Shown here in pieces: positions 1-64,000 of a stretch of 64,000 nucleotides of DNA. A program made the translations under genes and the position numbers. The stretch spans positions 930,001 through 994,000 of the forward strand of contig NZ_JALJYF010000002.1 of assembly GCF_024170465.1 (NCBI RefSeq). Direction: 5' to 3'. This DNA is from Natronospira proteinivora. Its GTDB lineage: Bacteria > Pseudomonadota > Gammaproteobacteria > Natronospirales > Natronospiraceae. The number at the start of each line of letters is the position of its first letter. The stretch's first letter is position 1. Under the pieces are notes generated by a model. It saw only the letters and a list, made by a program, of their open reading frames with translations, was not told where the DNA came from and did not search any database.

Positions 1-2368
1 TCCGGGCCATCTCCAGAATGCTTCGAACGATTTCCTGCTCCGCGGAGGATTGATCCAGCCTGGATAGAAAACTACGGTCGATCTTGATGGTATCAATGGG
101 CAGTTCCCGGATATAGCTCAAAGAAGAATAGCCCACACCAAAATCATCCACGCTGATCTTGAAGCCTCTTCGGGAAAGGGATTGCAAGCGCCAGCGGGCC
201 TGGTCCAGATTCTCCACCAGGGTGTTTTCGGTTAATTCCAGGCAAATTTGATCCGGCCGAAGTCCATGGCTTTTAAGACAATGCATGAGCCCTTCTTCAA
301 AAGCGTGGTCCCTCAGCTGCAGAGGAGAGAGGTTTAGTGAGAGCCCCACTTGATTCAGTATCCCCTGCCTTTGCCATGCGACCGCCTGGACACAGGCCTG
401 TTCGATAACCGAACGGGTTAATGCATCAATCAGGCCGAAGCTCTCAGCCACGCCGATGAAGGTGGACGGTGGTACCGGACCTAGCCGTTCATCATGCCAC
501 CGCGCCAGCACCTCCAAATAGCAAATACGCTTGTTGGTCAGGGAGAGAATGGGTTGGAAATGAATCGACAGCTGGTCGTTCTCAATGGCATCGGCCAAAC
601 GGTTACGCATTTCCCAGCGTTCCATTAGGCCTGGGCCTTCACTCTGCCCAAATAGGGCGAAGCGGTTCCCCCCACTTTCCCGGGCTTCGAACACGGCTGC
701 TTCCGCCTGACGGACCAGATTGTCGCTACCGTTGGCAATATGGGGATAAAGGCTGCCTCCCACTGATGCCGTGAGGCGTACATCATGGCCTTCCACCTGC
801 AGCGGTTCTCCAACCTGCTCGGCAATCTCTCGGGCCACGCCGGCCAGTAGGCTTTCCGCTGCACTCTGACCACCGGGCAATGGCAGCAGCATGCTGAACT
901 CGTCGCTTTCCGTGCGCCCCAGCACCCGGCCGCCGATTTCCAATGTCTGAAGGCGGGCCACCAGAGCATGCAGCATGTTGTCGCTGAGGGCCTGCCCGTG
1001 GAGGTGCCGCAGACGGCGAAAACCGTCAATATCCACCACCAGCAAGCCCAGACCCTGACCATGCCTGGGGCCCCGGGTGCTGGCTACCCGTTCGCTGACC
1101 AGTTGGAAGAAACGATTGCGTCCGGGAAGTCCCGTGGTGGCATCGAATTCGGCTCGGTGTCGTGCGATTCGCTGGTGGGTCTCCGCCAGCAAGGAGGCCC
1201 GGTCCCTCTGACGGCGAAGATTGGAAAATTCCCATTGAATCGCCAGACCCAGGGACAAGCCCCCGGCCAGCAGGCCCAGTTTGAGCACATCAAAGCTGCT
1301 CAGGCCGGGGTTCGGCAACCAGCCCAGACGAAACAGGCCATTGACCATCAGGGCCAGCATGAGAAAGATAAAGCCCATCAACAGCGGGCCGGCGTTCTGT
1401 CTCCCTTGGCTGACGCCGGCGCCGGTGAGGAGTAGACCGCCGAAGGCAAACAGCAAGGCGCCCGCTTCACTCAGCAGCAAGGCCCGGTCTGGCATCAGGC
1501 CGGCCATGACCAGCAGGCCGCTTGCCAGGATCCCCGTTCCCCACAACACCACATCAATCCAGGGGGCACTCTCTGCATGACGGAAGAAATGGGCCAGGAA
1601 CAAGGTGCCGGCCGCGAAGGCCAGGGCCAGGCAGAAAAAGACGCCGTGCACCTGCCAGGCATGGGTGCCGATCCCCAGCCACTGAACATGCAGGTGTTCA
1701 CCCAGGAACAAGGATGCGGTGAAAAAACCGATATAAGCCGAGAAATGGAGCAGACCCAGACTGCGGATATTGCCAAGTAGCAGCAGCCCGTAGATCACCA
1801 ATGCCAGCAGGGTGCCGTAGACCAGGCCCTGAAGCAGGGTGTTCCGGGTTTGCTCCGCCACCAGCAGATCTGCCGGCCCGGTCTTGACGGGAAATGCCCC
1901 GAAAAAGGGCGATTCAGCGGTGACAAGCACGGGTCGGGTCGGGTCCAATGCTGTGGGGGCAATGAAAATGCTCTGGCGCTGACTCTGGGCTTCCGGCAAT
2001 CCGTCGGGGGCGGGTCCCGCACAGCGGCTCTGCCAGCCCCCCGCCCGAGCCGGCCAGAATACACAGAGATCCCGGTAGCCGGTGACCGGCACACTCAGGC
2101 CCCAGCTCTGTCCAGCCGGCACTGACTGGGGATTGAGTAGTTGCCAGAAGCGTTGACCGTTGGTCTGGGAAGCGGCGGTGGGGGAGCCAAGGCAGTTTGC
2201 CGAAGCCAGCAAATGATCCGGATCCAATTGGTCGGCGGGCCCCCGGACCGTATGGACCTGATTTAGCTCCTGCATCTGCAGGCTTTCATCGCTCCACTCC
2301 ATGGGGCCAAGCCCGGGGCAAGCCGCGACGGCGACAAAACTGAGCCATTGCAGTGTGTGGATGAGCAT
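1..2368 (-). CDS. Membrane-bound GGDEF/EAL cyclic-di-GMP protein (3' end outside window)
   Basis: About 789 residues are visible; the C-terminus runs off the window. A hydrophobic N-terminal segment is followed by a roughly 160-residue probable periplasmic sensor part, then a block of about seven hydrophobic helices (residues ~175-370), an arrangement like the 7TMR-DISM sensors. The cytoplasmic part has a GGDEF-type domain (from ~400) whose signature reads TESDEF instead of GGDEF (~residue 490), so cyclase activity is doubtful. The EAL-type domain (from ~582) has EVL at the signature, then ELTE, DDFGVGYSS and IKIDRSF, which are metal and substrate site motifs, so it is probably a phosphodiesterase. 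The start at 2368 is chosen because GGGGA lies eight bases upstream; an in-frame ATG at 2398 is an alternative. The next gene, uvrD, is divergent. Confidence 0.88.
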   Translation of the reverse strand, partial: MLIHTLQWLSFVAVAACPGLGPMEWSDESLQMQELNQVHTVRGPADQLDPDHLLASANCLGSPTAASQTNGQRFWQLLNPQSVPAGQSWGLSVPVTGYRDLCVFWPARAGGWQSRCAGPAPDGLPEAQSQRQSIFIAPTALDPTRPVLVTAESPFFGAFPVKTGPADLLVAEQTRNTLLQGLVYGTLLALVIYGLLLLGNIRSLGLLHFSAYIGFFTASLFLGEHLHVQWLGIGTHAWQVHGVFFCLALAFAAGTLFLAHFFRHAESAPWIDVVLWGTGILASGLLVMAGLMPDRALLLSEAGALLFAFGGLLLTGAGVSQGRQNAGPLLMGFIFLMLALMVNGLFRLGWLPNPGLSSFDVLKLGLLAGGLSLGLAIQWEFSNLRRQRDRASLLAETHQRIARHRAEFDATTGLPGRNRFFQLVSERVASTRGPRHGQGLGLLVVDIDGFRRLRHLHGQALSDNMLHALVARLQTLEIGGRVLGRTESDEFSMLLPLPGGQSAAESLLAGVAREIAEQVGEPLQVEGHDVRLTASVGGSLYPHIANGSDNLVRQAEAAVFEARESGGNRFALFGQSEGPGLMERWEMRNRLADAIENDQLSIHFQPILSLTNKRICYLEVLARWHDERLGPVPPSTFIGVAESFGLIDALTRSVIEQACVQAVAWQRQGILNQVGLSLNLSPLQLRDHAFEEGLMHCLKSHGLRPDQICLELTENTLVENLDQARWRLQSLSRRGFKISVDDFGVGYSSLSYIRELPIDTIKIDRSFLSRLDQSSAEQEIVRSILEMAR

Positions 2369-54137: not shown

Positions 54138-54315
54138 AATGGCCAGCATCAAAAGTAGGCTGGTTGTCTGCCAACGGCGGTGCTGTTTCGGCGGCTTGAA
54201 GCCCAAACCCTGTCTCTGAGCCGTTCCCGCCTTCTCCCGCGAAATTCTCTGCTACGCTTAAGTGTCTGGTAGGGAGGAAATTGTCCTTCTATCACATGGA
54301 CTTGGAGAAGTGGTG

Positions 54316-55773
54316 ATGGCGAATGGAAGCATCCTGGATAAGCTCCAGACGGGTGAGCGTGCGCGGCTGATACCCGTTGGGAGTGATCGGCAGAAGGAAT
54401 CCCGGGCTATTTCGGCGTTGTTGGCAGTTTTCCGCCTGATTCCTGATTACGCTAATCTAATGCTCGACGAGGTCGGGGCGCCTACCAACAAGCGCGCCAA
54501 GCTGAGTGCCTGGACAGAGACTACCTTCAAGGTCCTCGGCAAGAAGCCGGCCCAGCTGCCTCGCCCTGACGGGCTCCTGGTGGTCCACAGCGGCAAGAAA
54601 GAGTGGTCGGCGCTGGTTGAGGCCAAGGTGAAGAACGAGGAGATTTCCGCCGATCAGATTGAGCGGTATCTCGATCTAGCCCGCGAAGTGGGCGCAGACG
54701 CGGTCATCACCATTTCCAACCAGTTTGCCCTCTTGCCGAATCATCACCCCGTCAGAGTGAATCGACAGAAGACCCGTTCGGTCTCCCTGTACCATTTCTC
54801 CTGGCTCGCCCTTCAAAGCAATGCCCAGGTCTTGTCAGATTCGGACACGCTCGAAGATGAAGAGCAGGCCTTGGTGCTTAAGGAGCTGATCCGTTTCCTC
54901 GAGCACGATAATTCGGGTGTTAAATCCTATGATCGGATGGGGCCAGCCTGGAAGGAGCTTTGCGCGACGGTTCAGCGCGGCGCCCCTTTACGGAAAAATG
55001 ACGAAGCGCTACAGGAGGCCGTGGCGGATTGGCACCAGCTTTGCCGCTACCTCGCGCTGAAGCTCAGCAGCCGCCTGGCCAAGCCGGTATCTGTTCATGT
55101 ACGCCGCAAGCACGCCAAGGATCCCCTCAAACGGCTTGAGCATGATATTGAGCGCTTGGTGAAGGACCAGATCCTGGCTGACCAGTTCGAGATCCCGAAT
55201 GCGGCCAGCAATGTTCACCTATCGGCAGATGTCATGCGCCGCACCATCAACCTCTCCATGCCTCTGGACCCACCCAAGGATAAGAAGCGCCCGACGGCCG
55301 CCGTGAATTGGCTAACCCGCCAGCTCGATCCAGAAACGGCGAAAGGCGTATTGATCCGATGCACTTGGCCACGCCGCACCCCCGACACAGTTCAACCACT
55401 CGAGGCCGCCCTCGAAGACCCGAAAGTATTGATCCCGGAGGGTATGTCCGATCTCCCGACTGGCCTAGAAGTGATGCGAGTGGTCGACCTTGCGGGCCGA
55501 TTCCGTGGAGCCCGCACCCTCGTTGAGGACATCGAAAAAGCCTTCCCCTCCTTCTACCGCGACATAGGACAACACCTCCGCGCGTGGACACCGCCGCCGC
55601 CGAAATACCGAAAAAAGTCGAAGCCGGTATCCGATCAAGAGGAGCGTTTGGCAGAGCGCGAAGCTGCTTTGGCGGAACGCAAGGAAGAGCCAAGCGAAGC
55701 TGATGTCAGCTCCGCGACCGATTTTGTTACAAGCCCCGATCAGGTAGATGACCGAGGAAACTGGAACCCGTAG
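54316..55773 (+). CDS. PD-(D/E)xK nuclease-like protein of unknown function
   Basis: 485 residues from the ATG (MANGSILDKL) preceded by GGAG; the frame is open from 54262. The N-terminal half carries RPDGLLVV (Asp85), LVEAKV (Glu102, Lys104) and DQIERY (Gln114), matching the D...ExK...Q arrangement of restriction-like nucleases of the family that recognises DNA ends or modified DNA. The C-terminal half contains beta-rich segments and a helical tail with repeated KxxE/R charged residues. No helicase or methylase neighbour in the same direction. Could be a defence nuclease, a stress-response protein or unrelated with a chance motif. Confidence 0.68.
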   Translation: MANGSILDKLQTGERARLIPVGSDRQKESRAISALLAVFRLIPDYANLMLDEVGAPTNKRAKLSAWTETTFKVLGKKPAQLPRPDGLLVVHSGKKEWSALVEAKVKNEEISADQIERYLDLAREVGADAVITISNQFALLPNHHPVRVNRQKTRSVSLYHFSWLALQSNAQVLSDSDTLEDEEQALVLKELIRFLEHDNSGVKSYDRMGPAWKELCATVQRGAPLRKNDEALQEAVADWHQLCRYLALKLSSRLAKPVSVHVRRKHAKDPLKRLEHDIERLVKDQILADQFEIPNAASNVHLSADVMRRTINLSMPLDPPKDKKRPTAAVNWLTRQLDPETAKGVLIRCTWPRRTPDTVQPLEAALEDPKVLIPEGMSDLPTGLEVMRVVDLAGRFRGARTLVEDIEKAFPSFYRDIGQHLRAWTPPPPKYRKKSKPVSDQEERLAEREAALAERKEEPSEADVSSATDFVTSPDQVDDRGNWNP

Positions 55774-59600: not shown

Positions 59601-59713
59601 ACTGAATGACTGTCTGCAGGGTCCAGGCGCTCAGAGGCAAGCTCCGAACTTAGCGTCTCCAGCGACTCCGCCAGGTCCTGGTCGATGATCCGTTCGTAAA
59701 GTCCCTTACGCAT
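56639..59713 (-). CDS. PLD-like nuclease fused to superfamily 2 helicase with DUF3427 C-terminus
   Basis: 1024 residues from MRKGLYERIIDQD. Order: N-terminal helical region; phospholipase-D-like domain with the single HxK motif RLHAKAYLF (residues ~208-216) and GSANLS; superfamily 2 helicase with AATGTGKT (332-339), DETH (429-432), LTATPER, and QLGRGLR; then an alpha region with HNIRRSVL; C-terminal DUF3427 domain (LHAHYTRDEILALTGV ... IPARILRI). Related proteins occur in bacterial defence islands, but the exact mechanism is unknown. A longer reading of 19 codons lacks the usual start. GC-rich, unlike the neighbouring genes. Confidence 0.88.
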   Translation of the reverse strand: MRKGLYERIIDQDLAESLETLSSELASERLDPADSHSVLADHLRILVAAVLRRQPADGRLKHQAALFNRLVEVLGEFDAKLGTTGKQLGPAMERLLAVYDGPEPPPRPDTPASMSSLLTGTRSDPSLLSQLKRELATADRVDILCSFIKWSGVGLLQDALERFAQREGTELRALTTSYMGATDLAAVEALARLPNAQVRVSYDSHRTRLHAKAYLFERQTGFSSAYVGSANLSRPALTEGLEWTLKATQYADPAIWEKVLGTFQSYWEDPEFEAFDADKLREALADQRRPREQQAIVPAFDLRPFQFQQEILEALAADREDREAPHRQLVVAATGTGKTMLAAFDYRRQVREYGGRYPRLLFVAHRREILQQSLNSFRAVLRDQNFGDLLDASAKPSQTNHLFATIQALHRRDWLAEAAREPYEYVVIDETHRSAAESYQGVLDRLEPNILLGLTATPERADGEDILAYFGDRIVSEMRLPDAINRRLVVPFHYYGLADNIDYRHVHWERGGYRVAEIDKLITGDRVRASLVVEQCHRRLPDVHQARGLAFCVSVEHARFMADFFNQSGIPSAHLSGETSRAERDQVRDRLRRRDINFIFVVDLYNEGVDIPDVDTVLFLRPTESLTVFLQQLGRGLRLTYDKDYLTVLDFVGQMHEKFRFDHRLRALSTDPDANLKEEVERDFPHLPAGCAIELERKARERVLHNIRRSVLAGQPQLVRDIADFEAETGRPLSFGAFLQHHRLNPDDIYRRASWSRLLARAGLREDFSCPDEQRLSRWLRRLTHADDALRLDRWAQWLETGQGDDPLVLALCVALLGKDSNIESGQDAWQLLQANPELHREARDLVAWPRQQPGAGRQTRPEETAKLPLILHAHYTRDEILALTGVQGWGKKVMMQEGVKHIPDQKLDLFLTTLQKSEKHYSPTTMYEDYALDAWHFHWQSQSTTSDTSPTGKRYIHHAEKGYTPLMFAREVAKKGDYTLPYAFLGPVEYQSHGGSRPINFIWRMEYEIPARILRISRRLTAD

Positions 59714-59851
59714 GAATGGAACATACCAGGGAATTCCAATCGCACCTAGACGGCCCAAGAAACAGCGCAAAAACAGATGGTTAGAGGGCGGTTGTGTTCC
59801 TCTGGGTCCTGGCGAATCGAGGTGGTCGCTGATCAGACAAGTGCGGGGGGC

Positions 59852-59952
59852 TTGAAAATGCCGGAATTCCCGCTATTATCTCTCCCTGATAGCGCCCCTT
59901 AGAGTACGGCCCTCGCACATAGCAAGGGCTCGGAAATTTGGGGCTTTTTTTT
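59852..59952 (+). ncRNA. Promoter plus compact structured RNA, copy A
   Basis: TTGAAA (59852-59857), 16 bases, TATTAT (59874-59879): a good sigma-70 promoter. About 14 bases downstream, GCCCC (59894-59898) pairs with GGGGC (59940-59944), enclosing a hairpin GCCCTCGC-ACATA-GCAAGGGC (59909-59929), followed by eight T. This is a roughly 70-base RNA with a terminator-like end located 38 bases before the NYN gene. A near copy with the same promoter and fold is at 63800-63890. It could be a free small RNA, or an attenuator controlling the NYN gene. No known RNA family recognised. Confidence 0.6.
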
Positions 59953-59989
59953 GGCTAAGGTTTTTGGCTAAGGAAAGGGATGTCCGCGA

Positions 59990-60667
59990 ATGAAGACTGC
60001 GATCCTGATTGATGGCGCTTACTTTGTTAAGCGCTATCGTGCCCTCTACCCCGAGAAGCATGACGAACCAATCGAAGACACCGTTTCGAATCTTTATGCC
60101 GGTGCAATAAACCTACTTCGAAAAGCGAACCGGCCGCCACGATCTCGTGAGCTGTATAGAATCTTCTTTTACGACTGCCCTCCCCTAGCGAAGTATATCC
60201 ATAATCCAGTATCACAACGCGGGGAACGGTTAGCAGAATCTCGCGAGGCAATCTTTCGTCATTCTTTGCATGAGCAATTAAAACGTCAGCGAAAAGTCGC
60301 ATTACGTCTCGGTCGGTTGGATGAGAACAATGCCCGCTGGGAGTTGAAAGGAGACCTGCTGAAGAAACTTCTTCGCGGCACATTGGAGGTCAAGGACATC
60401 CAGCCTACCGATGTCTTCTATCACGCAAGACAGAAAGGCGTGGATATGAAGATTGCCTCCGACATTGCCTCGTTGGCACATGGTGGTCATGTCGACCAAA
60501 TTATATTGGTGGCAGGCGACAGTGATTTTGTACCTGCCGCGAAGCTCGCTCGTAGAAATGGCATCGATTTCGTTTTAGATCCAATGTGGAATCATATTAA
60601 TCCGGACCTATTCGAGCACATTGATGGCCTATGCGGAGGCTGGAAAAATCCGAGAAATTCCACATAG
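59990..60667 (+). CDS. NYN-domain protein (putative PIN-like ribonuclease)
   Basis: 225 residues. AILIDGAYF (Asp8) opens a PIN/NYN nuclease fold; KGVDMKIASDIASLA (Asp152, Asp158) and VAGDSDFVPAAKLAR (Asp177, Asp179) complete the acidic metal cluster. NYN proteins cleave RNA and some act in toxin or surveillance systems. An insertion (residues ~55-140) between the first and second motifs is longer than in the smallest NYN proteins. GAAAGGG precedes the ATG. Preceded directly by a structured RNA element. Lower GC than the helicase gene next to it. Confidence 0.88.
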   Translation: MKTAILIDGAYFVKRYRALYPEKHDEPIEDTVSNLYAGAINLLRKANRPPRSRELYRIFFYDCPPLAKYIHNPVSQRGERLAESREAIFRHSLHEQLKRQRKVALRLGRLDENNARWELKGDLLKKLLRGTLEVKDIQPTDVFYHARQKGVDMKIASDIASLAHGGHVDQIILVAGDSDFVPAAKLARRNGIDFVLDPMWNHINPDLFEHIDGLCGGWKNPRNST

Positions 60668-60746
60668 CTAACAGTCAGGTTATAGAGGTGCGATCGTTAT
60701 CCCATAGCAGAAACTCTAGCTCTAAGAATACGGGCCAGCGCGCTGT

Positions 60747-63437
60747 CTACTCCTCGGTCTCCTCTGGCGGTGCGGGGGCCAGGTAGCCCACCAGGATGGA
60801 GAGCAGGCCGAAGGCGAGGAAGGAGATGATGCCGGCCATGTTGGATAGGAACAGGCGGTCGATCAGGAGGAGCTTGGCCAGGACCAGGCCGAGCAGGGCG
60901 GCGCCGCACCACCAGAGGGGGCGATCGCCTCGCCGGGAGCCGAGAACCCAGGCGGTGACGCCCAGGATAGTCCAGAGGACGGTGACGGCGGCCTGGGCGG
61001 TGGGTGCGTTGAGGAGTGCTTCCAAGTTCCAGGGAATGTCGGTGAAATGATGGGTGGCTCGCAGGGTCATGGCCGTGACCACCAGCAGGCCGAGCCCGGC
61101 AAGCGCGGGCTGCTTGTAGGGGTGGGCCGGCAGTTTCCAGGTGAGCAGCAATGCCAGCGCGGCCAGTTGGGCTATTTCCAGGGGATTGAGGATCGGGAGG
61201 TAGATCAGGGGTGAGGGATCGCCTGCCGATTGGAGGCTGATTAGCAGGCCGAGCAGCAGCAGGCTGTTGCTGGCAATTCTCAGGATGCCCTGTTGCTCGG
61301 CCGGCAATGGCCAGGGGCTGAGCGGGGGGCGCTCACGGAACTGTAGCCAGGCGCAAAGCAGTAGTACCGGCAAGCCGCCGAGGGCGATCTGCCAGCCGAC
61401 GCCCATTCCGGCGGTATTGGCGGTCAGGTTGTACAGGGCAATACTTGGTGCGGCGAGCAAGGCTGCGTGGGTGGCCAGGCTGGCCGCTAGGCGCTGCTCG
61501 GGTGGCGCTCTGTCTATGAGCCGTTGTCCCAGCCAGGCCAATGCCAGGAACAGGCCCCAGGCCGGGGCGCTCCAGCCGGCGACGACATCGCCGAAATGAA
61601 TCTGTTGGGCGAGGGCGATGGGGGTGCCTGTGGCCAGGGCGATGATCGCCGCGATGGCGGTGACCGGCCAACCACGCCAGCGATACAGGGCGCCGCCGAG
61701 TCCGGCGGTCAGCCCGGCCAGGGCCAGCATAAGGTCCGCCTGGAGGGCGCCGCTGGCATGGCGTTCGATCTCCACCACACCGGCCAGTGCCCAGACAGCA
61801 ATGCCCCAGACGGCGAGTGAGTGGACCAGGGTTTCCGGGGTGCGGGCGAGATCGAAGCGCCAGGCGCTGAAGAGGCCGGCAAAGGCGATGGCGAGCGCGC
61901 CCATGTATAGCCCGTTGAGAATGGGCAGTTCTGCCGACGGGCCGGTGACGGTGGCCCCGAGCAGGGCCAGGGTCGCCAGGCCCTGCAGACCAAGCCCGGC
62001 CAGCTGGGCCAGGCGTTCTTGCTGTCTCAGGCCAATCCATACCAGGGCGGCCCCTTCCAGGGCCCAGATCAGGGTGACCGTCGGCCCGGTAAAGGCGATG
62101 GGCACGGCGAGGGTGGCAAAGCCCACCGCCAATGCAAGGTGCGCATCGCCGAGCGGGCGAAGCCGGAAGCGCTTAAGCGTCAGCCAGGCCACCAAGGCAT
62201 AGACCACGGCGATCACTGCCGAGCACAGCGCCACCGCGAGGCGTTCGCCGTCGAACAGGGCGGCAAATAGCGGGAAGGCGAACAGCGGCAGGCCGAATAC
62301 CACGGCCACATCCAGCGTGCCGGTCCGGGCCTTGGTTTGCTCTGCGGGCTGGTTCAGGGCGTGGCGAATCGGGACCAGCAGATACAGCAACGAGAAAAAC
62401 ACCAGGAAGGGGAAGGTGCTGGCGAAGTGTTCCGGCTGGTAACGGAGCACGCCCCAGACGGTGCCGATGATGAAAGTGAAGGCGAAGCCCAGGCGGTTGA
62501 GCAGCGGCCAGGGCCGATACCAGGTGACACCTAGGACGGCGAGATTGAGTAGCGCGTAGTAGCTGAACAGGGCGATGTGGCTGCCCTCGCCGGTGGTGAC
62601 GAGTATCGGTGCGGCAAAGCCGGCCACCAGGGCGAGTACACCCAGCGAAAGCGCGTTTTGTAATAGCGCCAGGGCTCCCGTCGCCGCGACCAGAATCAGC
62701 AGTAGGGCGAAGGCCGCTGTTGTGGGGATCAGCTGGTAGAGGCGGAAGGCGGCAAAAACGGTCAGGATCAGCGTGCCGATGGCACCACCCTGCACGGCCA
62801 GGGAGAAAAGCCGGCGAGCGTGGCGTTGCCGCCAGGCAAAGGCAAGCGCGCCCAATGCCACCAGGCTGATTCCGATCAGACGGAACTCAATGGGCGCCGA
62901 GAGCCAGCCCTGTGCCGCGGCGTAACGCAACAGCGCCGCCACGCCAACGAAAGAGACCAGTACGCCCACCTTGACCGGCACATTGCCGTGAGAAAACCAG
63001 TCCTTAAGCCAGCTCAGCGCCTGGCCAAGGGGATCGGAGGCCGGTTTGTCGATGGTCGATGACTGGAAGGCGGCCCGGGCCGGGCGGCGGTCGTCCGGGT
63101 GTTCGGACAGGAGGGTGGAGGCATGGATACGGTTCGAGTCCGGCGCATCGCGCTTGGCGGCTTTTGTTTGCCGGTTTGGATCGGCTGGCGGCTCTTCCCG
63201 TGAAGAATCGGGTGGTGAGGCCGCCGTATCGGTTTCTGCGGTTACCTTGGGGGTTACCTGGGTGGCTTCTTGGGCGGCGGCCCGGGTGGCGGTATTGCGT
63301 TCGTGCTCCTCCAGTCGGACTTCCAGGTCCCGGGTCCGCGCCCGAAGTTGCTTGAGCGCTTCATTGAGTCGGCTCACCACCACCGCGAAGACAATGACGG
63401 CAAGCACCGTCAGCAGGAAGCCAAAATCCCCTTTCAT
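60747..63437 (-). CDS. DUF2339 polytopic membrane protein
   Basis: 896 residues. An N-terminal helix, coiled coil (LNEALKQLRARTRDLEVRLEEH), disordered Ala/Thr/Pro-rich linker, then about 20-25 predicted helices beginning with the hallmark SWLKDWFSHGNVPVKVGVLVSFVGVAALLRYAA. This is the DUF2339 family; function unknown, possibly linked to cell envelope physiology. GC-rich with core-genome-like composition, so it may mark the far border of the accessory segment. Stand-alone transcription. Confidence 0.9.
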   Translation of the reverse strand: MKGDFGFLLTVLAVIVFAVVVSRLNEALKQLRARTRDLEVRLEEHERNTATRAAAQEATQVTPKVTAETDTAASPPDSSREEPPADPNRQTKAAKRDAPDSNRIHASTLLSEHPDDRRPARAAFQSSTIDKPASDPLGQALSWLKDWFSHGNVPVKVGVLVSFVGVAALLRYAAAQGWLSAPIEFRLIGISLVALGALAFAWRQRHARRLFSLAVQGGAIGTLILTVFAAFRLYQLIPTTAAFALLLILVAATGALALLQNALSLGVLALVAGFAAPILVTTGEGSHIALFSYYALLNLAVLGVTWYRPWPLLNRLGFAFTFIIGTVWGVLRYQPEHFASTFPFLVFFSLLYLLVPIRHALNQPAEQTKARTGTLDVAVVFGLPLFAFPLFAALFDGERLAVALCSAVIAVVYALVAWLTLKRFRLRPLGDAHLALAVGFATLAVPIAFTGPTVTLIWALEGAALVWIGLRQQERLAQLAGLGLQGLATLALLGATVTGPSAELPILNGLYMGALAIAFAGLFSAWRFDLARTPETLVHSLAVWGIAVWALAGVVEIERHASGALQADLMLALAGLTAGLGGALYRWRGWPVTAIAAIIALATGTPIALAQQIHFGDVVAGWSAPAWGLFLALAWLGQRLIDRAPPEQRLAASLATHAALLAAPSIALYNLTANTAGMGVGWQIALGGLPVLLLCAWLQFRERPPLSPWPLPAEQQGILRIASNSLLLLGLLISLQSAGDPSPLIYLPILNPLEIAQLAALALLLTWKLPAHPYKQPALAGLGLLVVTAMTLRATHHFTDIPWNLEALLNAPTAQAAVTVLWTILGVTAWVLGSRRGDRPLWWCGAALLGLVLAKLLLIDRLFLSNMAGIISFLAFGLLSILVGYLAPAPPEETEE

Positions 63438-63799
63438 GCCACAAGTCCCCTTTCTCTATCCCCGGCGCTGCCTAATGGCCCGGCTACACGCTCAGATTCA
63501 ATTTGAATGGGAGGGGCATGCGTACTGAACGCCGAATGAACGCCGATAAACGCGGACAGCCCCCTCCCGTAGGCCCTAATCTGCATGATCTGTCGGAAAA
63601 TTTATACACCTGCCGGCCAAACCGCCATGAGTGAATCAATGTCATGACCGCTTGGTCCCTACCACCGGCGTCAGTTGAAATGGGGCCATAATGCATGTGT
63701 CGGTGCTATCTGTGTTCTTGGCCCGTCGAACGAGACTTGCCTTGATGCGATCCATCTCGAAAAATTAAGGGATTATTTCCGCTCGTGAAAGCAGACTAC
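63438..63799. other. Gene-poor interval before the second RNA copy
   Basis: About 360 bases without a supported gene. A 70-codon minus-strand frame (63484-63696) has no protein-like features. No repeat other than the element at 63800 was seen. Confidence 0.6.
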
Positions 63800-63890
63800 T
63801 TGAAAAAAACGGCGCTCCCGATATTATTTATTCCTGATAACGCCCCTTTGAGTACGGCCCATGCGCATAGCAAGGGTGCGGAAATTAGGG
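63800..63890 (+). ncRNA. Promoter plus compact structured RNA, copy B
   Basis: TTGAAA (63800-63805), 16 bases, TATTAT (63822-63827), the same promoter as copy A. The leader CCTGATAACGCCCCT, GAGTACGGCCC, CATAGCAAGGG and CGGAAATT follow the order of copy A with scattered substitutions. The hairpin GCCCATGC-GCATA-GCAAGGGT (63857-63877) is retained: one pair is lost, a neighbouring one gained and a G:C becomes G:U. CCCCT and AGGGG can close the outer stem. The T-run of copy A is missing. What follows downstream lies beyond the window. Confidence 0.55.
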
Positions 63891-64000
63891 GGGCACTAAG
63901 CAAAAAATGGTGGTCAGGGCCTGCATCCCACTAGACTGATCGAACGAACACGGGGAGAGGGTTTGAAAGAAGGGGGGCATTTCGCAGTTTTTATATGGTG

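Follow-up and report, generated by a model that had tools for sequence, protein, structure and literature searches.

In this study we describe a short structured RNA that lies directly upstream of an NYN-domain nuclease gene in Natronospira proteinivora. The DNA analysed, here called the window, is a stretch of 64,000 nucleotides (nt; NCBI RefSeq assembly GCF_024170465.1, contig NZ_JALJYF010000002.1, positions 930,001 to 994,000 of the forward strand), and positions are counted from its first letter. By its sequence the element looks like a member of a large, undescribed RNA family with a conserved, covarying structure that stands before NYN genes in bacterial genomes, phages and plasmids. We propose that the RNA neutralises the nuclease encoded next to it, so that the two would form a module working like AbiF/RCd22 or the type III toxin-antitoxin systems; in our judgement the chances of this being right are about even. 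As we infer its workings, from expression through binding, toxicity and neutralisation to the trigger, the promoter would drive an RNA of ~67 nt that folds into a long hairpin with its own terminator. Most transcripts would end at this terminator, leaving the RNA in excess, and occasional read-through would yield the mRNA of the downstream NYN nuclease. The NYN protein would bind the RNA, probably via an AGUA/GA internal loop and an AU in the hairpin loop, and the nuclease would be kept inactive. If the RNA fell short, through phage takeover of transcription or loss of the mobile element, the nuclease would cut host or phage RNA, with abortive infection or addiction as the outcome.

An earlier note on this DNA had pointed to two elements with the same promoter hexamers and spacing, one of them ending in a T-run shortly before the NYN gene, and all of this is confirmed. 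In a repeat search, copy A (59851-59943) and copy B (63799-63891) form one 93-nt repeat family, aligned without gaps at 81% identity, with differences at 18 of the 93 positions. Both carry TTGAAA, a 16-nt spacer and TATTAT on the forward strand (59852-59879 in copy A, 63800-63827 in copy B), each with 10 of 12 matches in a promoter scan. These are the sole sigma-70-like sites in 59700-64000, where their count by itself, two against 1.4 expected in shuffles, is unremarkable. The RNA of copy A would run from 59886 to 59952 on the forward strand, with the start placed 7 nt past the -10 box and the end at the U-run. Its outer stem (P1) pairs GCCCC at 59894-59898 with GGGGC at 59940-59944 and encloses an internal loop and an inner hairpin; the 5' strand of the loop, AGUA at 59903-59906, lies opposite GAA at 59933-59935. 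Eight Ts directly after P1 (59945-59952) form a predicted intrinsic terminator, and 37 nt separate their end from the ATG of the NYN gene at 59990. A third copy is absent from the 2.93-megabase (Mb) genome by blastn, which retrieved copy B with an expectation value (E) of 1.3e-18.

The wider family carries most of the argument. Many related NYN loci, read in the correct orientation before their start codons, show the same upstream anatomy. From these we picked 64 candidate elements, using a descriptor that asked for the outer stem, a T-rich tail and GTA in place; 54 of them (ten were left out) and copies A and B make up the 56-element seed alignment A4, on which the covariance model R1 was built. 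RNAalifold found changes on both sides in 13 of 13 pairs of this alignment. With a 15-pair structure, 88.5% of the cells are paired against 69.4% in shuffles, and double changes are seen in 191 cells, where shuffles give 47.8 and slid versions of the structure no more than 42. All 15 pairs have a double change, a number that shuffles reach in 14 of 500 cases; since the alignment rows are related, the double changes are not independent events. In P1 (columns 5-12 with 53-60) 8 of 8 pairs are changed on both sides and 96.2% of the cells are paired across the 56 sequences, and pairing is less strict in the inner helix, with 75.4% of its cells paired and two of its pairs open in 29 and 23 of the 56. 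A check set of 46 non-seed elements aligned by MAFFT alone gave 11 of 11 covarying pairs with the layout unchanged. This set, A8, consists of 42 of the 66 non-seed matches before NYN genes, the second copy of locus L132 and the phage and plasmid loci L020, L021 and L023, and it holds near copies (L118 and L023; L111 and the seed L110). R1 itself finds copy A at 59891-59953 (48.2 bits, E 1.6e-12), a match by construction, copy A being among the 56 seed rows, and a genome-wide search with it gave no full-length match beyond copies A and B.

The covariation of the family thus bears out the outer stem and hairpin that had been proposed from the two copies, although the folding energy of copy A alone is weak (z -1.19, with 29 of 200 shuffles as good). 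Copy B folds at z -2.91 (0 of 200 shuffles as good), and the complement of copy A folds better than its own strand (z -3.52); it is the comparative data, not the folding energies, that settle the strand of the RNA. Likewise, the 18 differences between the copies prove little about preserved pairing, which the earlier note had read from them, and it is the wider family that shows covariation.

The consensus order is promoter, 8-pair P1, AGUA/GA internal loop, two-pair helix and short hairpin, with the U-run after P1. The 5' strand of the internal loop reads AGTA in 49 of the 56 seed rows, GTA having been a selection criterion; the unselected 3' strand has A in all 56 and GA in 49, and an AU stands in the inner hairpin loop in 51. 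We take the AGUA/GA loop to follow the loop E or sarcin-ricin bulged-G pattern, as a sequence pattern only. The idea that the RNA might be a guide did not survive this comparison: the conserved parts are the stems, the internal loop and the hairpin loop, and no variable spacer-like segment was seen. Related elements have a T-rich stretch after P1 (again part of the descriptor), and 51 of 99 elements have, within 55 nt upstream, a sigma-70-like site scoring 8 or more of 12 matches, compared with 8.7 in random windows of the same loci and 23 in mononucleotide shuffles. The 99 comprise 98 of the 120 matches before NYN genes and the second copy of L132. For 22 of these 51 the -10 box stops 10-11 nt short of the element, so the transcript would there hardly extend beyond the hairpin.

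It might be argued that the element is a plain intrinsic terminator that isolates the NYN gene from upstream transcription, and that the similarity is simply that of GC-rich terminators. The anatomy is indeed that of a terminator, and ordinary hairpins, too, match R1 over short lengths, mostly below 50 nt and with up to 31.8 bits (an 81-nt match in genome G143 is weak, at 22.8 bits). However, the letters of the internal loop and the hairpin loop are conserved, the stem is interrupted at the same place, a promoter-like site stands right before the hairpin, and full-length matches of 50-76 bits occur, in the sequences searched, only at NYN loci and a few orphans. We therefore regard this explanation as very improbable.

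The position before NYN genes is equally regular. At E 0.1, R1 has a match immediately in front of the NYN start codon at 57 of the 80 genome loci (with -2 to 44 nt between the two), which are the best 80 of at least 542 NYN relatives among 596 candidate stretches, and at 63 of the 80 viral loci (9 to 69 nt between), the best 80 of 152 relatives. At 30 bits or more there are 50 such genome loci and 52 viral ones. Seeds account for 54 of the 120 matched loci (23 genome, 31 viral), and among non-seed loci the RNA is found before NYN in 34 of 57 genome and 32 of 49 viral cases. Every matched locus has one RNA unit before its NYN gene. RNA distances and NYN distances are correlated across 47 genome loci (Mantel r 0.46, 0 of 2000 permutations as high). 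The covariance-model check that the earlier note had proposed therefore came out positive, with matches upstream of NYN genes, covarying pairs and enriched promoter-like sites. Strong matches occur in records titled Proteobacteria, Acidobacteria, Planctomycetes, Verrucomicrobia, Lentisphaera, Rhodothermales and Bacillota, many of them metagenome bins whose titles may be wrong. Throughout the 1.48 Mb searched, the second copy in L132 was the only other match that exceeds 55 nt in length and is not located at an NYN start. It lies at L132:5942-6003, ~250 nt past the NYN gene of an RNA-NYN module and directly before a phage integrase gene.

In a sample of the class, NYN relatives were found in 17 of 369 genomes (E 1e-10) and R1 matches (E 1e-5) in 9 of 369. 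Of these nine, 7 have the RNA directly before an intact NYN gene (the window included), G347 has it before an NYN remnant and G290 has it without NYN. These counts refute the notion of a dispersed repeat or chance duplicate unconnected to NYN, which copy B, unlinked to such a gene, and the existence of orphans might suggest; we find it hardly credible. The coupling of RNA and RNase that had been supposed for the window holds for copy A, promoter-linked and before the NYN gene, and not for the orphan copy B. Weak R1 matches were seen in G199 (24.7 bits) and G242 (20.7 bits) of the class sample, and G295 has a similar hairpin by eye. A phylum sample of 398 genomes, partly overlapping the class sample, gave R1 matches at E 1e-5 in 14, one of which (G528) is a 39-nt hairpin. 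Eight of the other 13 have an intact NYN gene, G400 has an NYN-like start by eye, and G290, G530, G543 and G456 have none downstream. A pattern search of viral contigs for the Pseudomonas type gave no match, and three matches of a further pattern search were on contigs already in the set. One pattern match, L275, was discarded as chance because neither NYN nor an R1 match was found there.

Full-length RNAs also occur where no NYN gene adjoins: in viral records (L250 with 75.7 bits, L254 with 70.0) and in genomes (L256 with 61.0 bits, L258 with 53.0, and also L260 and L199). An NYN profile had no match in G290, G530, G543 (76% complete) and G400, nor in the two possibly fragmentary viral records with L250 and L254; G456 has an orphan RNA locus and a distant NYN gene elsewhere in the genome. 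In G347 (L200, G347:C13) an intact RNA stands upstream of an NYN remnant of ~40 residues, and in G400 the RNA is kept beside a gene that by eye is broken. Orphan RNAs and intact RNAs beside broken nuclease genes would be expected of an antitoxin, and judging by these loci the intact orphans argue against a purely cis-acting attenuator.

The main rival to RNA neutralisation is an autoregulatory leader, in which the hairpin would be a 5' leader and terminator that the NYN RNase would bind or cleave to adjust its own expression, with no toxin involved. Autoregulation of RNases is common, and some housekeeping RNases bind or cleave their own leader. The element is close before NYN with a terminator between promoter and gene, and the second copy of L132 precedes its integrase gene as a regulatory leader might. 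However, the intact orphans speak against it, in particular those of G290, G530, G543 and of the possibly fragmentary L250 and L254 records, in which no NYN profile match was found. The start that we place a few nt before the stem leaves little room for an upstream antiterminator, which also counts against a leader, and carriage by phages and plasmids suits a conflict module better than RNA housekeeping. We hold the leader to be possible, though doubtful.

Several of the orphan loci show further features. The remnant at L200 is followed by a gene that by eye resembles the start of a type III restriction methylase. The orphan RNA at L250:9252-9569 has the full consensus; a truncated ToxN frame, encoded on the opposite strand, overlaps it with its 3' end. 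The orphan of G530 (L256, G530:C70, ~1501-1621, minus strand) lies between genes that by eye are hsdM-like and hsdS-like type I restriction genes. It stands 8 nt after the only abiF-RNA-like match of that genome (34.6 bits with a cut-off of 37, E 1.3e-4), and neither an NYN nor an Abi_2 (AbiF) protein was found in G530; possibly the locus is a double orphan antitoxin RNA. A DUF3800 partner for this orphan was dropped, as the 84-residue open reading frame (ORF) that resembled the start of a DUF3800 protein has no Pfam match and a genome search with PF12686 was negative.

Broken NYN genes were also seen in E. coli, where 274 of 5426 genomes have the sequence that precedes the phage NYN gene and 73 match at least 80% of this sequence plus NYN. 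Among the broken cases opened, IS1203 sits in NYN in three (in one orientation in O157:H7 Z885, in the other in two), and a fourth has NYN annotated as frameshifted and incomplete. The hairpin of this phage type was assigned by place and shape, as R1 does not recognise it (L022, L267, L271). A supposed broken gene in L268 was dropped because its frame is open; the NYN gene at L268:1626-2483 (E. coli GPEC1209), an open frame of 285 codons, is entered in RefSeq as two features.

Several observations weigh against the proposal of an RNA-neutralised nuclease. R1 has no match in 23 of the 80 genome loci and 17 of the 80 viral loci. Several of the unmatched ones (e.g. L031, L034, L065, L095 and L177) have a similar hairpin with different loop letters, and the Rhodanobacter loci L083, L089, L096 and L105 show no hairpin before NYN. 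Of the 17 class-sample genomes with NYN, just 8 match R1 strongly, and in six of the others, more distant and mostly at 36% identity or less, no RNA was seen; the RNA thus goes with one NYN clade. Five named phage and plasmid loci were searched with R1, and while L020, L021 and L023 matched, the model misses the E. coli phage type (L022) and the Campylobacter plasmid (L024). The E. coli counts lend weak support, since they come largely from one clone (O157:H7) and from a hairpin unrecognised by R1. The orphans may simply be loci that lost NYN recently, and not functional RNAs. Lastly, the hairpin of copy B (63842-63894, forward strand; R1 24.9 bits over model positions 5-54, likewise a seed row) has a longer outer stem than copy A and lacks the terminator T-run. 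Two ORFs on its 3' side had no Pfam match, and no NYN remnant was found there by tblastn at significance.

The gene downstream of copy A (59990-60667, forward strand) encodes a protein of 225 residues that, by its predicted model, is of the NYN/PIN fold with conserved acidic residues and is a putative RNase. It matches Pfam NYN (PF01936) with 43.2 bits, above the curated cut-off of 24.2 (E 7.2e-11), and PHROG 5783, whose function is not assigned (E 4.4e-80). An AlphaFold2 model (pLDDT, the predicted local distance difference test, 95.9) was aligned by VIA-align with the NYN domain of MARF1 (Z 15.9, root-mean-square deviation 2.5, 144 of 225 residues) and with VPA0982 (Z 15.1, 150 of 225 residues). 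T5 flap endonuclease came third in the VIA re-alignment (Z ~10), and these three stood well above the rest. A Foldseek search of the PDB found nothing at E 0.001, nor did a search of PDB sequences with a profile at 0.01; NYN relatives also surfaced weakly in a search of a viral fold library. Four aspartates in the NYN motifs, D8, D152, D177 and D179, which we take to be the catalytic residues, are invariant in 102 sequences (alignment A7, the window protein and 101 of 132 listed). The nuclease fold and the conserved AU in the hairpin loop would also suit a different relationship, in which the RNA is a substrate or processed partner and NYN a dedicated maturase that makes a small RNA acting on other targets. 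The stems, however, vary with pairing kept, and no conserved unpaired region is long enough for pairing with a target; we consider such a role improbable.

The surroundings of the module are varied. It adjoins a LexA-like repressor in Escherichia phage ev099 and Proteus phage Brookers, lies between regulator and integrase in Streptococcus phage Javan85, and in Moraxella phage Mcat4 is found past the terminase gene, unlike the repressor-side phages. Plasmid records with an NYN relative number 163, of which 128 are conjugative and 134 are from Campylobacter; others are from Xanthomonas, Aeromonas and Thermus. R1 matches the Xanthomonas and Thermus plasmid loci opened, and the Campylobacter hairpin was assigned by eye alone. 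Small RNAs of the Campylobacter plasmid pTet have been seen by differential RNA sequencing and Northern blot, the part of that paper used here leaving unnamed which ones (PMC3656092), and we draw no claim on expression from it. Phage integrase was the top Pfam family in a scan of 110 of the 154 neighbours, with 5 of 110, and no defence model matched more than 2 of the 110. With neighbours so varied, the RNA-NYN pair looks self-contained.

In the window a PLD-helicase-DUF3427 gene stands beside the module (PADLOC match to a type IV restriction enzyme, E 2.3e-213). Near it, 54262-55773 encodes a 503-residue protein with no Pfam or PADLOC match at E 1, which may be a further defence gene. Elsewhere, isrK and C4 antisense RNAs (both Rfam) lie just 3' of the NYN gene of a Moraxella phage (L023:3792-3979), and a C4 RNA (Rfam) lies ~730 nt upstream of the NYN gene of a Xanthomonas plasmid (L021:2176-2267). 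At L004, ~1410-1501, on the 3' side of NYN near the contig end, there is an imperfect inverted repeat with attC-like ends.

Such NYN relatives are numerous: the scan of genome stretches gave at least 542 and that of viral contigs 152, and the RNA accompanies most of the top-scoring ones looked at. In the phage, plasmid and E. coli records opened they are annotated, where at all, only as hypothetical, PIN- or NYN-domain proteins, and the RNA is not annotated. With this family one starts from a structured RNA and a known protein partner. If the proposal holds, a new nuclease fold would join the RNA-neutralised toxins, a group proposed via AbiF as the source of Cas13 (PMC12373285, PMC12737573). 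A bolder joint reading would see here the first class of RNA-neutralised PIN/NYN toxins, with an origin separate from that of AbiF and ToxN and a distribution across several phyla and many temperate phages. The AGUA/GA loop would then mimic the sarcin-ricin loop of 23S rRNA as a decoy for a ribosomal cut site, and the orphan RNAs, including one joined to an abiF-like motif, would be stand-alone antidotes that protect a genome or phage. As a whole we judge this combination unlikely.

How does the module compare with systems already described? The view of the earlier note that no described RNA family fits is upheld. Rfam 15 gave 0 matches in the window at gathering thresholds, and in 24 distinct related loci it gave only tmRNA, tRNA, C4 and isrK, all away from the element. 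In the open-licence literature, searched by titles and the openings of abstracts (subscription papers lying mostly outside this scope), no NYN-linked RNA was reported. The best weak Rfam match over copy A was anti-hemB RNA (RF02837; 19.1 bits against a cut-off of 49.5). It was rejected as the parent family: between the -10 region and the U-run, which the alignment brings together, lies a large unaligned insert, and the hairpin layout is another one. The model also gives matches at E 0.001 in 69 of 143 genomes, in 6 of them above the cut-off. DUF3800-associated RNA motifs are structured RNAs found repeatedly upstream of one predicted nuclease family. Our element likewise precedes one nuclease family, which is a different one, and the element matched no Rfam model at gathering. 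With MARF1 and VPA0982 the NYN protein has the fold in common, and the linked RNA is what sets it apart.

In AbiF/RCd22 the RNA is transcribed from the same promoter as the toxin gene, most transcripts end before the toxin is reached, and RCd22 neutralises the AbiF toxin in cis and in trans by direct binding (PMC12373285); a review treats AbiF as a type III toxin and a forerunner of Cas13 (PMC12737573). The NYN module is alike in its predicted promoter, short RNA and terminator, RNase gene downstream, presumed read-through mRNA and carriage by prophages. It differs in the nuclease, an Abi_2 HEPN protein there and an NYN/PIN fold here, and in the RNA, which there has abiF motifs and a separate terminator and here is a single hairpin that would serve as its own terminator. 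The abiF RNA model (RF03085) had no gathering match in the window or the 24 related loci, and none at E 0.1 in the N. proteinivora genome, a search whose control genomes also gave none.

As a comparison of type III we take the gene order of ToxIN, CptIN and TenpIN and their carriage by plasmids and phages. The NYN module has the same order of RNA gene, terminator and nuclease gene, with terminator and transcript predicted, and is likewise carried by plasmids and phages. The antitoxin RNA of ToxIN consists of tandem repeats, whereas copy A is a single unit, a further point that counts against our proposal. Homology to ToxN, CptN or TenpN was not found either, with no ToxN Pfam match to the window protein at E 1 or below, although a distant structural relation of the NYN protein to ToxN may exist. 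With neither the tandem repeats nor the ToxN homology, the module would work like the type III systems rather than be a member of them.

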